This document shows, in pieces, positions 5,120 through 57,732 of a stretch of DNA of 64,000 bases (positions are counted from its first letter, which is position 1; each line of letters opens with the position of its first letter). Both the position numbers and the translations under genes were made by a program. The notes under the pieces were generated by a model that saw nothing but the letters and a program-made list of their open reading frames with translations, searched no databases and was not told where the DNA came from. The DNA is taken from contig NZ_JMKI01000047.1 of assembly GCF_000712295.1 (NCBI RefSeq), positions 62,001 through 126,000 on the forward strand, read 5' to 3'. This DNA is from Synergistes jonesii (lineage in GTDB: Bacteria; Synergistota; Synergistia; Synergistales; Synergistaceae).

Positions 5120-6739
5120 GTGACTAAGTATATTTTTGTAACTGGCGGTGTTGTATCGTCGCTCGGTAAAGGAATCACCGCCGCCTCTCTCGGCGCTTTG
5201 CTGAAACGCCGAGGCTATAAGGTGAGCATCATCAAAATGGACCCTTATATCAACGTCGACGCCGGAGCCATGAGCCCCTTTCAACACGGGGAGGTCTTCG
5301 TGACGTGCGACGGCGCTGAGACGGACCTTGACCTCGGCCATTACGAGCGCTTTATAGACGAGGCCATTATGGGAGACAACAGCTGCACCACCGGCAAGGT
5401 TTACTCTGCGGTGATACAGCGCGAAAGAGCCGGCGGCTATAACGGAGCCACGGTCCAGGTCATCCCCCATATAACGAACGAAATACAGGACAGGATAGAA
5501 CGCGTCGGCAAGGGCAAGGACGTAGTCATCGCGGAGATCGGAGGCACGGTAGGAGATATCGAGGGGCTTCCCTTCCTCGAGGCGATCCGCCAGTTCGCCG
5601 GCCGCGTCGGACGCAAAAATATACTTTACTGCCACGTGACGCTCGTTCCTTATATCGCGGCGTCGGGCGAGCTGAAGACGAAGCCGACTCAGCACAGCGT
5701 CAACGAACTGCGCCGCATAGGGATACAGCCGGACGTTATCGTCTGCCGCTCGCAGTATAATGTCGGCCCCGATCTCCGCGAAAAGATAGGGCTCTTCTGC
5801 AGCGTGCCGGCCGAGGCCGTATTTGAAGCTGTAGACTCCGATTCCATTTACAGGATTCCCATCGTACTTCATTCGCAGAAGTTCGATAACCTCGTGCTCA
5901 AAAAGCTCGGCATGCGTTCCGTCAAAGCGCCCGATCTGAGGGACTGGAAGGAATTCCTCCGCAAATACGACACGCGCAGAGGCGAGATCGTCGTCGCGCT
6001 CGTAGGAAAGTACACGAGCATAAAAGACGCTTACCTTTCGGTCAACGAAGCGCTTTCTCACGCGGGCATCGCGAACGGTGTAAAGGTCAGGATGTTCCCG
6101 GTAGAGGCCGAGGACCTTGAGACCGGCGACGCTGAAGAAATACTCGGACGGGCCGACGCGATACTGGTGCCAGGCGGCTTCGGGCAGCGCGGCGTCGAAG
6201 GCAAAATAGCCGCCGCGAAATACGCGCGCGAAAACGGCATCCCATACTTCGGCCTCTGCCTCGGCATGCAGGTCGCGGTCATCGAATTCGCGAGAAACGT
6301 CCTCGGGCTCAGCGGGGCGAACAGCGTCGAGATGGACGAAAAAACGCCCGACCCTGTCATCTACCTGATGAAAGAGCAGGAGAGCGTGACAGACGTTGGG
6401 GGCACCTCACGCTTAGGCGCTTATCCGTGCAAAATATGCAGCGGCTCCAAATCAGAAGAAATATACGGCACAAACGATATAGAAGAGCGCCATCGCCATC
6501 GTTTTGAATTCAACAACAAATACATAAAAGAATTTGAAGCCGCGGGAATGAAAGTCGCCGGCGTCTGCCCGACGGGAGGACAGGTCGAGATAATGGAGAA
6601 CGCGAACCATCCGTGGATGATAGGGGTGCAGTTCCACCCTGAATTCCTTTCGCGTCCGGTAAGGCCGCACCCCCTTTTCAAAGCTTTCATCGCGGCGGCT
6701 CTCGAAAGACAGAAGAAGCTTAAGAAGGAGGCAAAATAA
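5120..6739 (+). CDS. pyrG: CTP synthase
   Basis: CTP synthase aminates UTP to CTP with ammonia from glutamine, the last step of pyrimidine nucleotide synthesis. The protein has 539 residues, the usual length. The N-terminal synthetase domain opens with [17 protein letters not shown], the classical signature. The C-terminal glutamine amidotransferase has the nucleophile in GLCLGMQ (about residue 380) and the His/Glu pair in FHPEF (about 505). The start is GTG with an AAAAGGGGCG ribosome site 10 or so bases upstream. All catalytic motifs are present. The next gene starts two bases after the stop, so they are probably co-transcribed. Confidence 0.97.
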
Positions 6740-21772: not shown

Positions 21773-21848
21773 TGGAGCCAGCGTCCAGATTCGAACTGGA
21801 GACCTGCGCATTACGAGTGCGCTGCTCTACCTGCTGAGCCACGCTGGC
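21773..21848 (-). tRNA. tRNA-Thr (anticodon CGT)
   Basis: The minus strand folds as a full cloverleaf. The acceptor stem is GCCAGCG/CGCTGGC, the D arm GCTC...AGC, and the anticodon loop CTCGTAA gives anticodon CGT, which reads ACG. The T loop is TTCGAAT. Discriminator T and CCA are encoded. It is 76 nt long and lies six bases downstream of tRNA-Gly, so both come from one precursor. Confidence 0.96.
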
Positions 21849-21854
21849 CTCTTT

Positions 21855-21930
21855 TGGAGCGGACAACGGGATTCGAACCCGCGACCCTTAGCTTGGGAAG
21901 CTAATGCTCTACCAGCTGAGCTATATCCGC
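21855..21930 (-). tRNA. tRNA-Gly (anticodon CCC)
   Basis: A 76-nt cloverleaf on the minus strand. The acceptor is GCGGATA/TGTCCGC with G-U pairing. The anticodon stem TTAGC/GCTAA holds loop TTCCCAA, giving anticodon CCC for GGG. The T loop is TTCGAAT and CCA is encoded. It is first in a two-tRNA unit with tRNA-Thr. Confidence 0.96.
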
Positions 21931-21946
21931 ATAACCAACAGCGGAT

Positions 21947-21975
21947 ATATTACCATACTTTTTTAAAATCTTCCA
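21947..21975 (-). promoter_or_regulatory. Promoter of the tRNA-Gly/tRNA-Thr unit
   Basis: On the minus strand TGGAAG (21975-21970), a 17-bp spacer and TAATAT (21952-21947) lie just upstream of tRNA-Gly. The -10 box ends 16 bases before the mature tRNA 5' end. Confidence 0.6.
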
Positions 21976-22206
21976 GTCTTATTTTATTCGAAGTTGGCAA
22001 TTTGGCGTTTGCAATCATTCTGCATTATTGATGGCGCTGAACAAGCCATCTATAGCGATTTTGAGGCAGTTGGACGTGCAGGCGCTGCGTCGTCTACCCA
22101 GTTCATGATTTGACGCGAATGTTAAAGCGCCGCGGCGGCCTGCCGAGACGGCATAAAAAATCGCCCTCGCGCACTATTACGACAGGAGCGACAATGTTGT
22201 CAAAAA

Positions 22207-22299
22207 TGGCGGAGAAGGTGGGATTTGAACCCACGTAACGGCTCATCACCGCTAAGACGATTTCGAGTCGCCCGCCTTCGACCACTCGGCCACCTCTCC
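22207..22299 (-). tRNA. tRNA-Ser (anticodon CGA)
   Basis: A 93-nt class II tRNA on the minus strand. It has acceptor GGAGAGG/CTTCTCC, discriminator G and an encoded CCA. The anticodon stem GGCGA/TCGTC holds loop CTCGAAA, giving anticodon CGA for UCG. The long variable arm and a T arm with loop TTCAAAT are typical of serine tRNAs. Confidence 0.96.
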
Positions 22300-51136: not shown

Positions 51137-51218
51137 AAATAAAATCGTTAAAGTTTTCGTTGCCGATGCGCCCGTATCGTGTTATTATTCACACAGTGAG
51201 AGTTGAAATAAAATCGTT
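51137..51218 (+). repeat. 13-bp direct repeat flanking the nitrogenase-like operon promoter
   Basis: AAATAAAATCGTT occurs at 51137-51149 and again at 51206-51218, 69 bp apart. One copy lies before the -35 box and the other after the predicted transcription start, so they bracket the promoter and could be operator half-sites. Confidence 0.6.
51160..51188 (+). promoter_or_regulatory. Promoter of the nitrogenase-like operon
   Basis: TTGCCG (51160-51165), a 17-bp spacer and TATTAT (51183-51188) form a good housekeeping promoter. Transcription from about 51195 would make a leader of roughly 138 bases. Confidence 0.68.
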
Positions 51219-51245
51219 CTGAATTGACGATGATTCGTTCGGAGT

Positions 51246-51313
51246 CGGAAGGCGAGCTTTTGAGAGAGGTCACTGTATTTTTTGTCCTTCCGTCTGCGGC
51301 GGAGGGGTTTTTT
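51246..51313 (+). promoter_or_regulatory. Leader attenuator: terminator with competing antiterminator
   Basis: CCTTCCG (51286-51292) can pair with CGGAGGG (51300-51306) to form a terminator hairpin followed by TTTTTT (51308-51313). It can instead pair perfectly with CGGAAGG (51246-51252), which would prevent the terminator. The structure ends 20 bases before the first gene. Confidence 0.6.
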
Positions 51314-51332: not shown

Positions 51333-52088
51333 GTGATAAAGATGGCGATTTACGGCAAGGGCGGCATAGGAAAATCCACCACGGCGTCGAACATTGCGGC
51401 GGCCTTCGCGCAGAACGGCATGCGCGTCATGCAGATAGGCTGCGACCCGAAGGCCGATTCGACCGTGAATCTGCGCGGCGGCGGGAGCGTCCCGACTGTT
51501 CTCGAACTTATAAGGGAGCGCGGCGCGGCGCTGACGCTCGAAGAGCTCGTTACGCCGGGCTTCGCCGGAGTGCTTTGCGTCGAAGCCGGCGGCCCGGCGC
51601 CGGGGCTCGGCTGCGCGGGACGCGGCATCATCGCGGCGATGGAGAAGCTGAAGGAGAAGAGGGCCTTTGAAATTTACAAACCCGACGCGGTGATTTACGA
51701 CGTTTTGGGCGACGTCGTCTGCGGCGGCTTTGCGATGCCGATACGCGAAGGCTACGCGAACAAAGTCTTCGTCGTGACCTCCGGCGAAAACATGGCGCTT
51801 CACGCCGCGGCGAATATCGCGGAGGCCGTCGCGAATTTCCGTTCACGCGGCTACGCGACGCTCGGAGGGATAATTTTGAATCGCCGCAACGTACCGCGCG
51901 AGGAAGAGAAAGTCGCGGAGCTCGCGTCGGACGTCGGTACGAAAATCGTCGGCGCGCTGGATTTCAGCCCGACGGTGCAGCGGGCCGAGGAGATATCGAA
52001 GACGGTGCTCGAAGCCTTTCCCGAGAGCGAAATGGCCGGCGAATACCGCGAGCTCGCCCGCCGTCTCCTCGCGGCTTGCGGTGAATGA
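51333..52088 (+). CDS. NifH-like nitrogenase reductase homolog
   Basis: A 251-residue P-loop iron protein of the NifH/BchL/CfbC type, which passes electrons from a bridging [4Fe-4S] cluster to a partner reductase using ATP. P-loop GKGGIGKST is at 8-16, CDPKADST at 37-44. The two cluster cysteines are Cys94 (GLGCAGRG) and Cys130 ([10 protein letters not shown]), so it should be functional. It is shorter than true NifH (about 275-295). The GTG start has GGGGGG upstream; the ATG at 51342 would leave too little before the P-loop. It overlaps the next gene by eight bases. Confidence 0.9.
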
Positions 52089-53418
52089 GATGATCGACCT
52101 CCACAATCCCGACTGGAGCGGCGCTTCGCTGAAAATCAAAGAAGCGGCCTCTCTCGATCCCTTCGAATACGGCCTTGAATACGGCTCGCCGGCGCGCGGG
52201 CTGTGGAATATCGTGCACACGGGGATGCTGCTGCCTGAGAGCCATCAGATATTCGTATGCGCGCAGGGCTGTCTGCGCGGCGTGGTCCTGACCGCGGCGG
52301 AGATGAACGCGCAGGATAGGTTTTCTACGGTGGCGGTATGCGAGAACAACGTCCTCGACGGCGACATGGAATCTCTTATAATCGACGGCGTCGCCGACGT
52401 CATCCGCAAGCTGCCGCGGAAGCCCAAAGCCGTGCTCGTCTTCACGAGCTGCATCCACAACTTTATGGGCTGCGATCTGAAATACGTTTATTCGCAGCTC
52501 CGCGGACGCTTCCCCGATATTTATTTCACGGACTGCTACATGTATCCGATAATGCGCAAGACGAAGACGCCGCCGGATCCGATGATGCGCATGAGGCTCT
52601 ACAGCTTCCTGCCGAAGTCCGCACATTGCGACGCGGAAAGCGTCAATATCATCGGGAACAACTACCCGACGGAAGACTCCTCCGACTTCGCGCGGATGCT
52701 GCGCGGCGCGGGTTACGAAATACGCGACATCACGCGCTGCCGCAGCTGGGAGGAGTACCGGAAGATGGGTGAAAGCCGACTGAACGTCGGCTATATGCCT
52801 CCCGCGCTTCCGGCGCTGCGCGACCTTAAAGAGCGCCTATGTATGGATTATATTTATATGCCTCTTTCCTATGATTACGAAGAGATAAGGAAGAGTATCC
52901 AGGCTCTATCCGAACGCCTCGATATTCCCGAAATAAACGCCGCGCTGCTAGAAGCCGACGCGGAGCGCGCGCTTGAGGCGGCGAAGCGCCTCCTCCGCGA
53001 TACGCCCGTCGTGCTCGACTACACCGCGACGCCGCGCCCGCTCGGCCTCGCGGAGCTGCTGCTGGATCACGGCTTCAACGTCCGCACCGTTTACGCCGAC
53101 GCGTTCATCGCCGAGGAGCGCCCTGCCTTCGACCGCCTGCGCGAAAAATTTCCCGAGCTTGAGCTGCGCGCGACCGTCCATCCCAAGATGGGGCTGCTGC
53201 CGCGCGCCGCGGCGAATCGCGATGAGAAAGTACTGGCGATCGGACAGAAGGCGGCGTATTTCGAAGACACCACTTACTTCGTGAACATGCTCGAATGCGG
53301 CGGCTATTGGGGTTTCGACGGAATTTTGCGCGTCGCCGAAGAGATATGCGACGCCTTCGTCGAAGAAAAAGATACGAAAAAAATTATACAGGTCAAGGGC
53401 TGGGGGTGCTGCTGTTGA
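52081..53418 (+). CDS. Nitrogenase component 1-like subunit (NifD/E-type)
   Basis: A 445-residue member of the nitrogenase component-1 superfamily (PF00148). Cysteines at 60, 64, 87 and 124/131 ([15 protein letters not shown] and [11 protein letters not shown]) match the places of the cluster ligands in the first domain. The C-terminal domain has [20 protein letters not shown], recalling the cofactor-side segment. The protein ends in an odd GWGCCC. It is too divergent from NifD for nitrogen fixation to be assumed. It overlaps the NifH-like gene by eight bases and the next gene by four. Confidence 0.85.
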
Positions 53419-54551
53419 AACAGACCTGCGCTATTCTGTCGACCTACGCGGCCGACGTTTCCGGCGTCTGCTCGGCGCTCTACGAAATGGGCGGGATGAC
53501 CGTGATGCACGACGCCTCAGGCTGCAATTCGACCTACAACACGCACGACGAGCCGCGCTGGTACGATATGCCGTCGATGGTCTTCATCTCGGCTCTCGCC
53601 GAGGTCGACGCCGTGATGGGCGACGACGAAAAACTCATAGGCGACGTCTGCCGCGCCGCGGAAGAGCTTCGCCCGCGCTTCGTCGCGCTCGCCGGCACGC
53701 CGATCCCGATGATGATGGGAACGGATTTCAAAGGCGTCGCGCGTCTGATAGAAAGCCGCACGGGAATACCGACGTTCGGCTTTGCGACGAACGGGATGCA
53801 CTCCTACAACAAGGGCGCGTCTACGGCGCTGGCCGCCGTCGCGGAGCGTTTCTGCGATCCATCGCTTTCGCGGCGTGAGCTGGCGGCGGAGGAGGCGCCG
53901 GAGGTCAATCTGCTCGGCGTCACGCCTCTTGATTTTTCCGTCACCGGCAACGTCGAAGCGATGAAAAAATCCTTCGTGGACGCCGGCTTTCGCGTCAACA
54001 GCTGTTGGGCGATGGGCGACGGCTGGGAGCGGCTGATGGAGGCCGGAAGGGCTCATGTGAACGTCGTCGTCTCATCGTGCGGCGAAGGGTTGGCGAAGGT
54101 CCTGCGCGAAAAATACGCCATTCCAGCAGTGACGGGAATACCGATCGGCGCGGCCGCGCAGCGGGAGCTATTCGACGCGGCGCGCGCGGCGGCGAGGGAC
54201 GGAAATGACAGAAAAATGCCCGCGCCCGACGCGGAAGGCGCGGAGTTTATCGTCGTAGGCGAGCCGGTGCAAAGCGCCGAGATAGCGCGCGCGCTGCACC
54301 GCGATTTTGGAATCGAAAGCGTCGGCGCGATTTCACCTCTCGATTTTCCCGACGAGGACAAGATATTCGCTCAATTGAAAAACGCTCGCACGGTAATCGC
54401 CGACCCGCTTTACAAGCCGGCCCTGCCTAAGGGCTGCCGCTTCCTTTCTCTGCCCCACGAGGGCTATTCGGGAAGGATTTTCAGGGATCAGATTCCGCTC
54501 ATCATGGGCGGAAATTTTAACGAATGGATTAAAAAGGAGCTTTCTCTATGA
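53415..54551 (+). CDS. Nitrogenase component 1-like subunit (NifK/N-type)
   Basis: A 378-residue second component-1 subunit. N-terminal cysteines 5, 19 and 37 (TCAILS, GVCSAL and DASGCNSTYN) lie where cluster ligands occur, followed by FISALAEVDAVMGDDEKL, a typical superfamily stretch. At the site of the third ligand the sequence reads ALAGTPIPMMMG with no cysteine. It is short for NifK (about 520) and close to the size of BchB- or CfbD-like proteins. The TTG start overlaps the preceding stop (TTGA), and its stop overlaps the binding-protein start (ATGA), so translation is coupled. Confidence 0.83.
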   Translation: MKQTCAILSTYAADVSGVCSALYEMGGMTVMHDASGCNSTYNTHDEPRWYDMPSMVFISALAEVDAVMGDDEKLIGDVCRAAEELRPRFVALAGTPIPMMMGTDFKGVARLIESRTGIPTFGFATNGMHSYNKGASTALAAVAERFCDPSLSRRELAAEEAPEVNLLGVTPLDFSVTGNVEAMKKSFVDAGFRVNSCWAMGDGWERLMEAGRAHVNVVVSSCGEGLAKVLREKYAIPAVTGIPIGAAAQRELFDAARAAARDGNDRKMPAPDAEGAEFIVVGEPVQSAEIARALHRDFGIESVGAISPLDFPDEDKIFAQLKNARTVIADPLYKPALPKGCRFLSLPHEGYSGRIFRDQIPLIMGGNFNEWIKKELSL

Positions 54552-55639
54552 AAAAGTTTATTGCTTTACTTATCTGTGCAGCGCTGTTGACGATTTCGGC
54601 GGGCGCGGAAGCGTCGCACATTATAACGGACCACGCCGGCGACAGCGTCGCCGTGCCGGAAAAGATCGAGCGCATCGCGGTGGCGGGGATACTGCCGTTC
54701 CCGTCGGTGCTCACGGTGTTTTTAGGCTCGGCTGAGAAGCTCGTCGGCATACCGCCTGCGTCGATGGGCGCGGCGAAGGCCGGCCTGCTGGGTGAAATTT
54801 TCCCCGAGATACTGAAGGCTGAGACGAATTTCACGTCTGGGCTCGACCTCAACATCGAAGAGTTGATGCGCCTGCGTCCGGACATAGTCTTTTACCTCGC
54901 CGGCAACAAGGAGATGGGCAGAATGATAAAAAACGCCGGCTTGACCGCCGTGGCGATATCGCCGACTAAATGGGATTACGATGTGATGCGCACGTACGAC
55001 GAATGGATAAAGACGCTGAGCTCCATCTTCCCGGAGAACAAAAAGGCGGAAGCCGCCTCCTCGTACAGCCGGGGCATCTACGGCGACGTGCAGAAGAGGG
55101 TGAAGAACGTTATGCCGGAAGAGCGCAAAAAAGTCCTCTTCCTCTTCCAGTACGACGACAAGCGCATGGTGACGTCGGGGCGCAGCTTCTTCGGGCAATA
55201 CTGGTGCGACGCCATAGGCGCCAAGAATGCGGCCGAGGAGGTGCCGGCGGACAACGCTAACGCCGTCATCACGATGGAGCAGGTATATAGGTGGAATCCC
55301 GACGTGATCTTCATAACGAACTTCACGCCGGCGATGCCGGACGATCTATACAACAACAGGATAGGCGGCGACAACTGGTCCAATGTGGCGGCCGTGAAGA
55401 ACCACGCGGTCTACAAGATGCCTCTCGGCATGTACCGCTCTTACACGCCCGGCGCGGACACGCCGATAACCTTCATGTGGATGGCTCAGAAGGTCTACCC
55501 CGAGCTCTTCGGCAAGATAAACGTGGAGAGGGAGGCCTATTCATATTACAAAAAGATTTTTGGAATCACCCTAACGGACAAACAGCTGAAGGGTATCTTC
55601 AATCAGGGGCGCGCCTCCGCCGAAGGCTTCAGACAGTAG
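54548..55639 (+). CDS. Periplasmic substrate-binding protein of the FepB/BtuF class
   Basis: A 363-residue binding protein (PF01497) with a cleavable signal peptide (about 1-22, ending AEA) and no lipobox cysteine, so it should be free in the periplasm. The two lobes are joined by one long helix, as in cluster A-II receptors for siderophores, heme and cobalamin: IERIAVAGILPFPSVL and IEELMRLRPDIVFYL mark the first lobe, and MEQVYRWNPDVIFITN the second. The ligand cannot be read from sequence. It starts inside the stop of the component-1 gene and is followed by the permease after three bases. Confidence 0.9.
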   Translation: MKKFIALLICAALLTISAGAEASHIITDHAGDSVAVPEKIERIAVAGILPFPSVLTVFLGSAEKLVGIPPASMGAAKAGLLGEIFPEILKAETNFTSGLDLNIEELMRLRPDIVFYLAGNKEMGRMIKNAGLTAVAISPTKWDYDVMRTYDEWIKTLSSIFPENKKAEAASSYSRGIYGDVQKRVKNVMPEERKKVLFLFQYDDKRMVTSGRSFFGQYWCDAIGAKNAAEEVPADNANAVITMEQVYRWNPDVIFITNFTPAMPDDLYNNRIGGDNWSNVAAVKNHAVYKMPLGMYRSYTPGADTPITFMWMAQKVYPELFGKINVEREAYSYYKKIFGITLTDKQLKGIFNQGRASAEGFRQ

Positions 55640-55642
55640 CTG

Positions 55643-56641
55643 ATGCGTGAAAGAACCGCGTTCGCCCTGATAGCCGCCGCGCTTGTAGTTTCTCCCGTAA
55701 CGGCGGTGATGGCGGGCAGATTTCCCCTTTCGGCGCACGATACGATCTCGGCGCTCTGCCCTTGGCTCTGGAGCTCCGAAGCGCCGCAGGTGGTGCGCGA
55801 CGTGGTGCTGAATATACGGCTGCCGCGCGTGCTGCTCGCGATGCTTGCAGGTTCCGGGCTCGGCGTTGCGGGCGGAGCCTTTCAGGCGCTCTTTTCCAAC
55901 CCGCTCGCCACTCCCGATACTCTCGGCGTGGCGACGGGCGCCTCCTTCGGCGCGGCGCTCGGCATTTTGCTCGGGCTTCCGTCGTTCGGCGTGCAGCTCT
56001 GCGCCCTTGCGTCGGGGCTCTTCGCGGTGGCGCTCGTGATGTTCGTCAGCCGCATCCGCGGCTCCTCGTCGGTGATCATGATGATACTTGCCGGCATGGT
56101 GACGAGCGCGCTCTTTTCCGCGCTCGTGTCGCTTGTGAAATACGCCGCGGATCCACAAGACGTTCTGCCTGCCGTGACCTTCTGGCTTATGGGCAGCCTT
56201 TCCGGCACCACGCGCGAAAGCGTGACGCTCGGCGCGCCTCTGATAGTCGCCGGGGTGACGGTGATATGGCTTTACCGCTGGAGGCTCAACGCTATGACCC
56301 TTTCGGAAGACGAGGCCGTTTCCCTGGGAGTAGACGTCAAGAGGACGCGCTTTGCCGTGATAGCGAGCGCGGCGGCGATAACCGCCTCCGTCGTTTCGAT
56401 GTGCGGCCTTATCGGATGGGTGGGGCTGCTTATACCTCACGCTTCGCGCATGGCCTTCGGCAACGACAACAGGCGCGTCGTGCCGGCGAGCGTCGCCTTC
56501 GGCGCGCTCTTCATGCTCGCTATAGACACTGCTGCGAGGAGCTTGACGGCGTCCGAAATACCTGCGTCTATACTGACGGCCGTCATAGGAGCGCCTTTTT
56601 TCATCTTCCTGCTGAGAAAGACGGGGGGAATCAAGGCATGA
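55643..56641 (+). CDS. FecCD-family ABC transporter permease
   Basis: A 332-residue permease with about ten helices, of the family that imports iron chelates, heme or cobalamin. Typical motifs are LPRVLLAMLAGSGLGVAGGA, FQALFSNPLATPDTLGVATG and CGLIGWVGLLIPHASRM, the last forming the contact with the ATPase. It starts three bases after the binding-protein stop and overlaps the ATPase gene by four. A single gene presumably forms a homodimer, as in BtuC. Length and motifs are normal. Confidence 0.93.
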   Translation: MRERTAFALIAAALVVSPVTAVMAGRFPLSAHDTISALCPWLWSSEAPQVVRDVVLNIRLPRVLLAMLAGSGLGVAGGAFQALFSNPLATPDTLGVATGASFGAALGILLGLPSFGVQLCALASGLFAVALVMFVSRIRGSSSVIMMILAGMVTSALFSALVSLVKYAADPQDVLPAVTFWLMGSLSGTTRESVTLGAPLIVAGVTVIWLYRWRLNAMTLSEDEAVSLGVDVKRTRFAVIASAAAITASVVSMCGLIGWVGLLIPHASRMAFGNDNRRVVPASVAFGALFMLAIDTAARSLTASEIPASILTAVIGAPFFIFLLRKTGGIKA

Positions 56642-57732
56642 CGGCCGAAAATACCGCCGCCGAGCCGATGGCCCCCCTTTTTGAAGTCCGCGGCGGCTGC
56701 TTCTCCTACGGCGACGGCGACGTGCTCTGCGATATAAATTTCTGCGTCGGCGAGCCGGATATACTCTGCGTATTAGGCGCGAACGGCGCGGGAAAGACGA
56801 CCCTGCTGAAATGCATGCTCGGCCTGCAGAAGTGGAAGCGCGGCGCCTCCTATCTGAGAGGCAGAAGGGTCGAAAGTATCCGGGCGAAAGAATTTTGGAG
56901 CTCCGTGGGCTACGTCCCTCAGGCGAAGCTCTCCTCCTTCGCCTATACCGTCGGCGAAATGGTGCTGCTTGGAAGGAACTCGCACATCGGCGGACTTTCA
57001 ATGCCGAAGGAGCGCGACAGGGAGGCGGCGCGCGGCGCTATGGAGCTTGCCGGCGTATCGGACCTCTCCGGCAGGCTGTGCAGCAGGATAAGCGGCGGCG
57101 AATATCAGCTTGTGCTGATAGCGCGCGCCCTTGCCGCCGAACCTCGCCTCCTTGTGCTCGACGAGCCGGAGTCGAACCTCGATTTTAAAAATCAAAAGAG
57201 GGTGCTCTCGACGATATCGACGCTCTGCAAGGAGCGCGGTATAGCCGCGATACTTAACACCCATTACCCGGAGCACGCTATGGACATCGCGCAGCGCGCC
57301 CTGCTGCTGCTCCCGGACAGGAGCGCGATATACGGCAGCGCCGCGAACGTGCTGAACGAGGAAAATTTAAAGCGCGCGTTTGAGATCGACGTATACATAC
57401 ACCGCTTCAAGATAGGAGGACGCGCTTACGCGAGCATCCTGCCCGTCGACGGCGAAGAAAAGAGACAGACGGAAAGGCTGAGAGAAATGGAGACAAGGAT
57501 AGCGCAGATAGGAATAATAGTAGAGGACCCGGACGCGGCTGAGAAGATAAACAAGCTGCTGCACGAATACAGCGAATTTATCATAGGGCGCATGGGCATG
57601 CCGTACAGAGAGCGCAACATTTCGATAATAAGCGTGATCATCGACGCGCCGAACGAAAAAATAAGCGCCCTCTCCGGAAAGCTCGGAATGTTTCCAGGGG
57701 TGAGCGCGAAAACGGTTTACTCAAAGCTGTGA
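56638..57732 (+). CDS. FecE-type ABC ATPase fused to a TM1266-like regulator domain
   Basis: Residues 1-260 are an ABC ATPase with Walker A GANGAGKTT (47-55), signature ISGGEYQ (151-157), Walker B LLVLDEPESNLD (171-182) and switch His209. From residue 284 to the end (364) a second domain follows: RIAQIGIIVEDPDAAEKIN, then IIGRMGMPYRERNISIISV and ISALSGKLGMFPGVSAK. This is the pattern of the small TM1266 family, annotated as iron-only hydrogenase system regulator, with a ferredoxin-like ACT/NikR-type fold. The frame is continuous across the junction. Met284 (57487) could be an internal start. Last gene of the operon. Confidence 0.88.
   Translation: MTAENTAAEPMAPLFEVRGGCFSYGDGDVLCDINFCVGEPDILCVLGANGAGKTTLLKCMLGLQKWKRGASYLRGRRVESIRAKEFWSSVGYVPQAKLSSFAYTVGEMVLLGRNSHIGGLSMPKERDREAARGAMELAGVSDLSGRLCSRISGGEYQLVLIARALAAEPRLLVLDEPESNLDFKNQKRVLSTISTLCKERGIAAILNTHYPEHAMDIAQRALLLLPDRSAIYGSAANVLNEENLKRAFEIDVYIHRFKIGGRAYASILPVDGEEKRQTERLREMETRIAQIGIIVEDPDAAEKINKLLHEYSEFIIGRMGMPYRERNISIISVIIDAPNEKISALSGKLGMFPGVSAKTVYSKL

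Follow-up and report, generated by a model that had tools for sequence, protein, structure and literature searches.

A probable family of cis-acting RNA attenuators shared by [FeFe]-hydrogenase maturation genes and a nitrogenase-like operon

Introduction

A 64,000-nucleotide stretch of the Synergistes jonesii genome (contig NZ_JMKI01000047.1, positions 62,001 to 126,000), called the window here, carries an operon of nitrogenase-like genes. A preliminary description noted that one segment of its leader, CCTTCCG, can pair either within a terminator hairpin or, as an antiterminator, with CGGAAGG further upstream, and likened the layout to that of a riboswitch or protein-controlled attenuator. The locus raises the question of whether this leader belongs to a wider family, how it would control the genes that follow, and what might bind it.

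Results

The leader and its operon

Features of the leader and operon are listed in Table 1. Rechecked on the sequence, the three pairing segments (the third, CGGAGGG, at 51300-51306), the T tract (six T, 51308-51313) and the start codon all lie where they had first been placed; the NifH-like gene opens with GTG about 20 bases beyond the T run. Because a promoter-like site with TGn-TATTAT lies ahead of the leader structure, transcription is expected to start upstream of that structure, near 51195. Of 31 type A/B leaders, 21 have an extended -10 element no more than 110 nt ahead of the core; shuffles average 1.8. Folding of the leader by itself showed no significant stability beyond shuffled sequences (z = -1.25; 20 of 200 shuffles as stable or better), so the attenuator claim must rest on comparative evidence.

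Table 1. Features of the leader and the nitrogenase-like operon (window coordinates)
Feature	Position	Strand	Remarks
Promoter, sigma-70-like	51160-51188	+	TTGCCG-17-TATTAT, TGn ahead of -10 hexamer; predicted
Conserved leader core	51210-51259	+	69.1 bits with model R2, whose training included the window sequence
P1, 5' strand	51214-51217 and 51219-51220	+	RNAalifold consensus; pairs valid in window
P2 hairpin	51226-51246	+	consensus pairs valid in window
P2a	51226-51228/51244-51246	+	
P2 purine loop, GA/GA	51229-51230/51242-51243	+	
P2b	51231-51233/51239-51241, loop 51234-51238	+	
Antiterminator 5' strand, CGGAAGG	51246-51252	+	complementarity across family
P1, 3' strand, AGGCGA	51250-51255	+	RNAalifold consensus; AGG common to P1 and antiterminator
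CCTTCCG, antiterminator 3' strand and terminator 5' arm	51286-51292	+	
Intrinsic terminator hairpin and T6	51284-51313	+	mechanical finder: 11 pairs, 3-nt loop
NifH-like gene	51333-52088	+	GTG start; under every equivalog cut-off
Nitrogenase component 1-like gene	52081-53418	+	PF00148
Second nitrogenase component 1-like gene	53295-54551	+	PF00148
Periplasmic substrate-binding protein	54548-55639	+	PF01497
FecCD-type permease	55643-56641	+	PF01032
ABC ATPase with C-terminal TM1266-like domain	56638-57732	+	PF21699 from about 57487, same frame

Against NCBIfam equivalogs, the NifH-like protein scores 324.3 bits where the nifH cut-off is 394.35, and 318.7 where that of CfbC is 402. The component 1-like proteins fall far under all cut-offs or have no match. 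Since no equivalog cut-off is reached, the proteins are not classed as NifHDK, CfbCD or BchLNB. The second component 1-like gene probably has its true start later, near 53400. The TM1266-like C-terminus of the ATPase resembles the regulatory domains that some importers carry; in the relatives G013, G014, G043, G044, G046, G047 and G048, too, the TM1266 match falls within a frame of about 366-692 codons. Within the family to which S. jonesii belongs, 27 of 52 genomes encode the NifH-like protein. One relative has an 88% identical protein. A species-level genome collection yields 43 loci, most of them in Clostridia. In two loci (L057, L059), the NifH-like match is followed some 3 kb downstream, at about 6280-6736, by a second, partial one with 59-62% identity.

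The S. jonesii genome has a second TM1266 gene elsewhere, 5' of hydF (L128/L298, G000:C31 near 26355). Its leader has a terminator hairpin and no recognisable motif, and HydE queries, HydG queries and HydA motifs have no match within 20 kb around it.

Homologous leaders precede hydrogenase maturation genes

The leader core is nearly identical in the Synergistaceae loci L003, L004, L006, L007 and L008, conserved also in L111, and clearly related in seven loci from Clostridia (L033-L037, L039, L048). Across these homologous leaders paired changes preserve the antiterminator, as CAGAAGG/CCTTCTG in L008 and GGAAGGCG/CGCCTTCC in L006. A radical SAM gene lies between leader and NifH-like gene in six of the seven Clostridial loci, the exception being L035, where the leader is directly 5' of the NifH-like gene. 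In a further Clostridial locus, L113, the one tested, the radical SAM protein of the nitrogenase-like operon scores above the HydE cut-off (TIGR03956, 557.7 bits; cut-off 254.6). In G044 the leader stands 5' of the importer alone, and the NifH-like gene was not found in that genome.

Thirteen nitrogenase-like leaders (alignment A1) were used to build a covariance model, R1. Searched against the 40 genomes of the NifH-like loci, R1 gave 9 matches above 34 bits, 7 of them known beforehand; one new site is directly before a NifH-like gene and the other before TM1266 and hydG. Among 391 Clostridia genomes there were 15 matches at E <= 0.001, one from a training genome. All 14 new sites precede TM1266-hydG, TM1266-hydE, hydE-hydG or hydE plus a NifH-like gene; genes at R1 sites were mostly named by eye from translations, with L113, L114 and L115 confirmed by profile and the TM1266 gene of L121 identified separately. 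In 149 Synergistota genomes, seven of eight matches are real; the eighth (L112, 27.6 bits) was rejected as false, lying inside an ORF that by eye resembles a release factor.

Genes with PF21699 occur in 92 of 148 Clostridia genomes, and 90 such loci were read. Model R2, which covers types A and B, scores at least 30 bits upstream of 9 of the 90; a third form, type C, was recognised by eye in 31 more, for a total of 40, and about 50 have no motif recognisable by either route. Model R3 was constructed from 31 type C leaders drawn from 148 of the 391 Clostridia genomes. Applied to all 391, it finds 72 matches in 66 genomes, of which 61 precede hyd maturation, nitrogenase-like or related regulon genes, an association only partly out of sample because the training leaders come from genomes within the search. 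All 30 fetched loci precede TM1266, hydE, hydF, hydG, aspA or a NifH-like gene (L270), nine further matches are directly 5' of PF21699 genes, and 22 of the 33 others have such contexts. Three more (L321, L342, L350) stand before SsuABC/TauABC-type importers, and eight are without evident link. The substrate of these importers could be the ligand or a precursor of it. One of the eight counted as unlinked, a well-formed motif before two genes of the chromate transporter family (L336, the first gene with PF02417), could be real. R3 also gives 15 matches at E <= 0.05 in 149 Synergistota genomes, 6 of them before hydG, and 7 at E <= 0.01 in 198 Spirochaetota genomes, 3 of them before hydG or hydF.

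The regulon so outlined comprises hydE, hydF, hydG, TM1266, aspA, nitrogenase-like genes with HydE, and importers of FecCD, ECF and SsuABC type. In L261 the motif precedes TM1266-FecCD; in L246 an ECF substrate-binding component, just above the Pfam cut-off for PF12822, is found beside TM1266. A membrane protein follows TM1266 in L246, L247, L254 and L272. According to PMC11736057, AspA can supply ammonium for the dithiomethylamine ligand of the H-cluster and aspA often occurs near hyd genes, so its membership here is understandable. Neither general iron-uptake genes nor methionine genes turned up among the contexts examined. The window leader is one copy of a widespread RNA element whose regulon is that of hydrogenase maturation, not the nitrogenase-like operon alone. 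To call it the leader of the nitrogenase-like operon is correct in the window and too narrow for the family, which occurs chiefly before [FeFe]-hydrogenase maturation genes.

Structure and covariation of the leader core

In members of the family, P1 and P2a are each followed by a purine internal loop, and a capped stem completes the module. In an alignment of 31 R1 matches (17 of type A, 14 of type B), P1 is formed by UCGU-n-CU with AGGCGA, and P2 by 3 bp, GA/GA, 3 bp and a loop. Double changes occur at 6 of the 12 pairs in the RNAalifold consensus of these leaders. Counted over a slightly different pair list for the same 31, double-change cells number 43 against 16.0 after shuffling, with 0 of 500 shuffles as high, and slid registers all score far below the true one. 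Most of this covariation is in P2; P1 shows little variation. A first guess at the end of P1 (A2 columns 11-12/57-58) was discarded, with 20 of 31 sequences paired at one position and zero double changes, and the RNAalifold P1 was adopted.

The type C form reads CUGA, four pairs, RA, a short stem, GA, four pairs and RAAGG. Both strands of the core in this, the largest subtype, are CUGA-N4-RAAG, which gives near two-fold symmetry. A strict descriptor, requiring CU(G/A)A-N4-RA on both strands, matches 18 of the 90 regions upstream of TM1266 and, among controls, none of the 90 reverse complements and 2 sequences over 20 x 90 shuffles. A looser mechanical descriptor, some of whose top-scoring placements miss the real core, matches 31 of 90 native sequences, no reverse complement out of 90 and between 0 and 4 of 90 in each shuffle. 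In an alignment fitted to the covariance model (A4, 49 matches), 95.4% of type C cells are paired and double-change cells number 100 against 23.2, with 0 of 500 shuffles as high, statistics that are inflated because A3 was chosen by eye and A4 filtered by context. A3 consists of the 31 of 90 TM1266 upstream regions picked by eye for fit to the motif; A4 consists of matches kept for a hyd, nitrogenase-like, aspA or importer context, with other matches and the A3 loci excluded.

Copies of the module recur in some leaders. With R3, additional type C copies are placed some 50 nt 5' of certain type B cores (L083, L115-L118, L126), and lone hairpin halves precede several type A cores, in 17 of 62 leaders against 1 in 10 x 62 shuffles; in several of these 17, the half counted is the inner one of a type C core itself. 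A pattern search of the window leader found no permuted module copy.

Three alternative structures

The antiterminator 5' strand includes the final base of P2a together with the AGG of P1, and the antiterminator 3' strand is also the terminator 5' arm. The conserved P1-P2 (51214-51255) therefore competes with the antiterminator, and there are three alternative structures. The attenuator layout first proposed survives with this amendment to its two alternatives, and the mutually exclusive terminator and antiterminator hairpins are borne out by conservation and covariation in homologous leaders. By computation, these leaders are conserved, their pairings covary, they are associated with a particular set of genes, and their alternative structures exclude one another by sequence.

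For the window RNA, the predicted energy is -32.0 kcal/mol with the antiterminator and -25.6 with P1-P2 forced; for the nascent RNA the values are -21.4 and -13.1 kcal/mol. Because the free RNA is predicted to favour the antiterminator, P1-P2 would need a stabiliser to switch the operon off. Complementarity of the P1 3' strand to the terminator 5' arm, measured with a wider strand and a folding-based terminator finder in the second of two tries, exceeds the mean of a leader's own shuffles for 21 of the 31 leaders of types A and B (Wilcoxon p 2.7e-4) and for 27 of the 30 of type C (p 1.6e-7). The first try, with a narrower strand and a strict terminator finder that located terminators in 24 of the 31 A/B leaders, was weaker, with p <= 0.05 reached by 4 of 24 A/B leaders and 10 of 30 of type C. 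Some leaders of other Synergistota and of Clostridia instead have a Shine-Dalgarno sequence in the P1 3' strand, a few bases from the ATG of hydG (L256, L273, L275, L278-L280, L285), which predicts the same OFF polarity as the terminator type. As the P1 3' strand either pairs with the terminator 5' arm or carries the Shine-Dalgarno sequence, stabilisation of the motif should turn expression off.

In the mechanism we propose, CGGAAGG of the free RNA would pair with CCUUCCG and the operon would be transcribed. A bound signal would stabilise P1-P2 with its two purine loops and sequester the CGGAAGG strand; the terminator could then form, and transcription would end about 20 nt before the first gene. 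In some hydG leaders, a stabilised P1-P2 would hide the Shine-Dalgarno sequence and block translation. The polarity, OFF upon binding, is inferred from sequence. We judge it quite probable that these leaders constitute a family of cis-acting attenuators with an OFF layout, serving [FeFe]-hydrogenase maturation genes and the nitrogenase-like operon, a judgement that leaves the binder aside. Weighing against it is that many TM1266 leaders, among them the one of the TM1266-hydF operon of S. jonesii, have no recognisable motif.

Comparison with known elements

At gathering score, Rfam 15 has no match for the window leader, in keeping with the first impression that it resembles no recognised riboswitch class, nor for the related type A, type B and 20 type C loci; scans of the related loci returned a single match, to a tRNA. 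Known riboswitches (cobalamin, Moco and others) were ruled out by Rfam scans that included permissive ones. The only matches in the window at gathering threshold are three tRNA genes at 21776-22299 on the minus strand.

The Moco/Tuco riboswitch likewise is a leader RNA over a metal-cofactor assembly regulon of biosynthesis, importer and enzyme genes, but it differs in sequence and structure and matches none of the present leaders by Rfam. PMC11109978 describes a weak riboswitch candidate associated with nifV in Geobacter, which resembles the present element in its tie to a nitrogenase-cofactor gene and in having the Shine-Dalgarno sequence inside the structure; it is known there from four representatives of one genus, with a different gene and lineage. 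PMC11423573 describes IsrBHDK/MarBHDK systems, in which nitrogenase-like HDK genes have a radical SAM gene and an importer next to them, as here; the text consulted does not call the radical SAM proteins HydE and does not describe RNA control. No description of the element was found in the literature searched, which was mostly non-subscription, so a report elsewhere is possible. The accessible portions of PMC11423573, PMC10418091, PMC3543383, PMC11736057, PMC11109978, PMC8632094, PMC6429828, PMC5651825 and PMC6239172 give no account of it, and term searches of the accessible text of PMC9431212, PMC2864571 and PMC7325909 returned zero matches.

Discussion

The nature of the binder is a separate matter from the existence of the switch. 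The leader joins a conserved, covarying, aptamer-like P1-P2 to an expression platform that shares a strand with it, the arrangement expected of a riboswitch. A small molecule or ion that signals the state of the iron-cofactor pathway has, in our estimate, about an even chance of being the binder, and direct binding of a ligand stands somewhat ahead of binding by the TM1266 protein.

The protein alternative, in which a TM1266 family member binds the symmetric module and represses its own operon, deserves serious weight, although we lean against it. PF21699 is present in 47 of the 51 motif-bearing genomes tested (28/30 plus 19/21), compared to its 92 of 148 among Clostridia generally. In many of these operons TM1266 comes first after the leader, and in the window it is fused to the importer ATPase. 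The symmetry of type C, along with the extra and half copies, would suit a symmetric dimer, and basic residues (R4, R35, K/R43, K/R65, K75) are conserved across 90 TM1266 sequences. An attenuator ahead of the gene for a candidate RNA-binding protein recalls the autogenous L10(L12)4 leader of B. subtilis; RNA binding by TM1266, however, is only putative, with none reported for the family in the literature searched, and its only solved relative, 2nzc, carries the name hypothetical protein. The L10_leader model scores 13.6 bits on the window leader, against a gathering score of 44. Co-occurrence of TM1266 with the motif is weak evidence because TM1266 and hyd genes go together anyway. Four motif-bearing genomes (G054, G064, G399, G166) lack PF21699. 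Three of these assemblies may be incomplete, but G166 is a single contig, rated 89% complete, with a well-formed motif before hydG.

A direct ligand need not be specific to hydrogenase. Tandem purine loops are plausible sites for an ion or small ligand, and HydE and HydG are iron-sulfur, SAM-dependent enzymes; on these grounds, the leader could be a riboswitch for free Fe(II), SAM or an amino acid. We consider such a general signal unlikely, given how narrow the regulon is in the contexts examined (hyd, aspA, nitrogenase-like genes, importers); in particular, the lack of general iron-uptake genes there would speak against plain Fe(II). The more specific proposal is that the RNA directly senses an organometallic compound formed during H-cluster assembly, as intermediate or product, such as an iron-carbonyl-cyanide synthon, or a precursor imported by the FecCD, ECF or SsuABC-type systems, with the nitrogenase-like operon and its own HydE placed in the same cofactor pathway. 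This is speculative, and we rate it unlikely as worded; if true, it would to our knowledge be the first RNA sensor of such an organometallic cofactor intermediate.

The polarity could also be reversed, with binding favouring the antiterminator or some other arrangement over P1-P2. Such an ON switch is given some room by a polarity read from sequence, but P1-P2 is the conserved, covarying structure, it excludes the antiterminator, and the Shine-Dalgarno variants predict OFF as well; we find an ON switch quite doubtful. That the terminator is unregulated, or works by leader-peptide or tRNA (T-box) attenuation with an alternative pairing due to chance, is very improbable: a lone leader folds no better than shuffles, but conservation spans three lineages with covariation and gene association, neither T-box nor any other Rfam leader matches, and the conserved letters sit in helix strands and internal loops.

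With its shared leader, the HydE of the Clostridial operons and the TM1266 domain, the orphan nitrogenase-like operon is tied to the hydrogenase maturation pathway. A short RNA together with a regulon of hydE, hydF, hydG, aspA and three kinds of importer narrows the candidates, which makes the ligand question directly testable. The element would represent a common RNA-level control point, not found described in the literature searched, for [FeFe]-hydrogenase maturation, a process central to anaerobes and to biohydrogen work.
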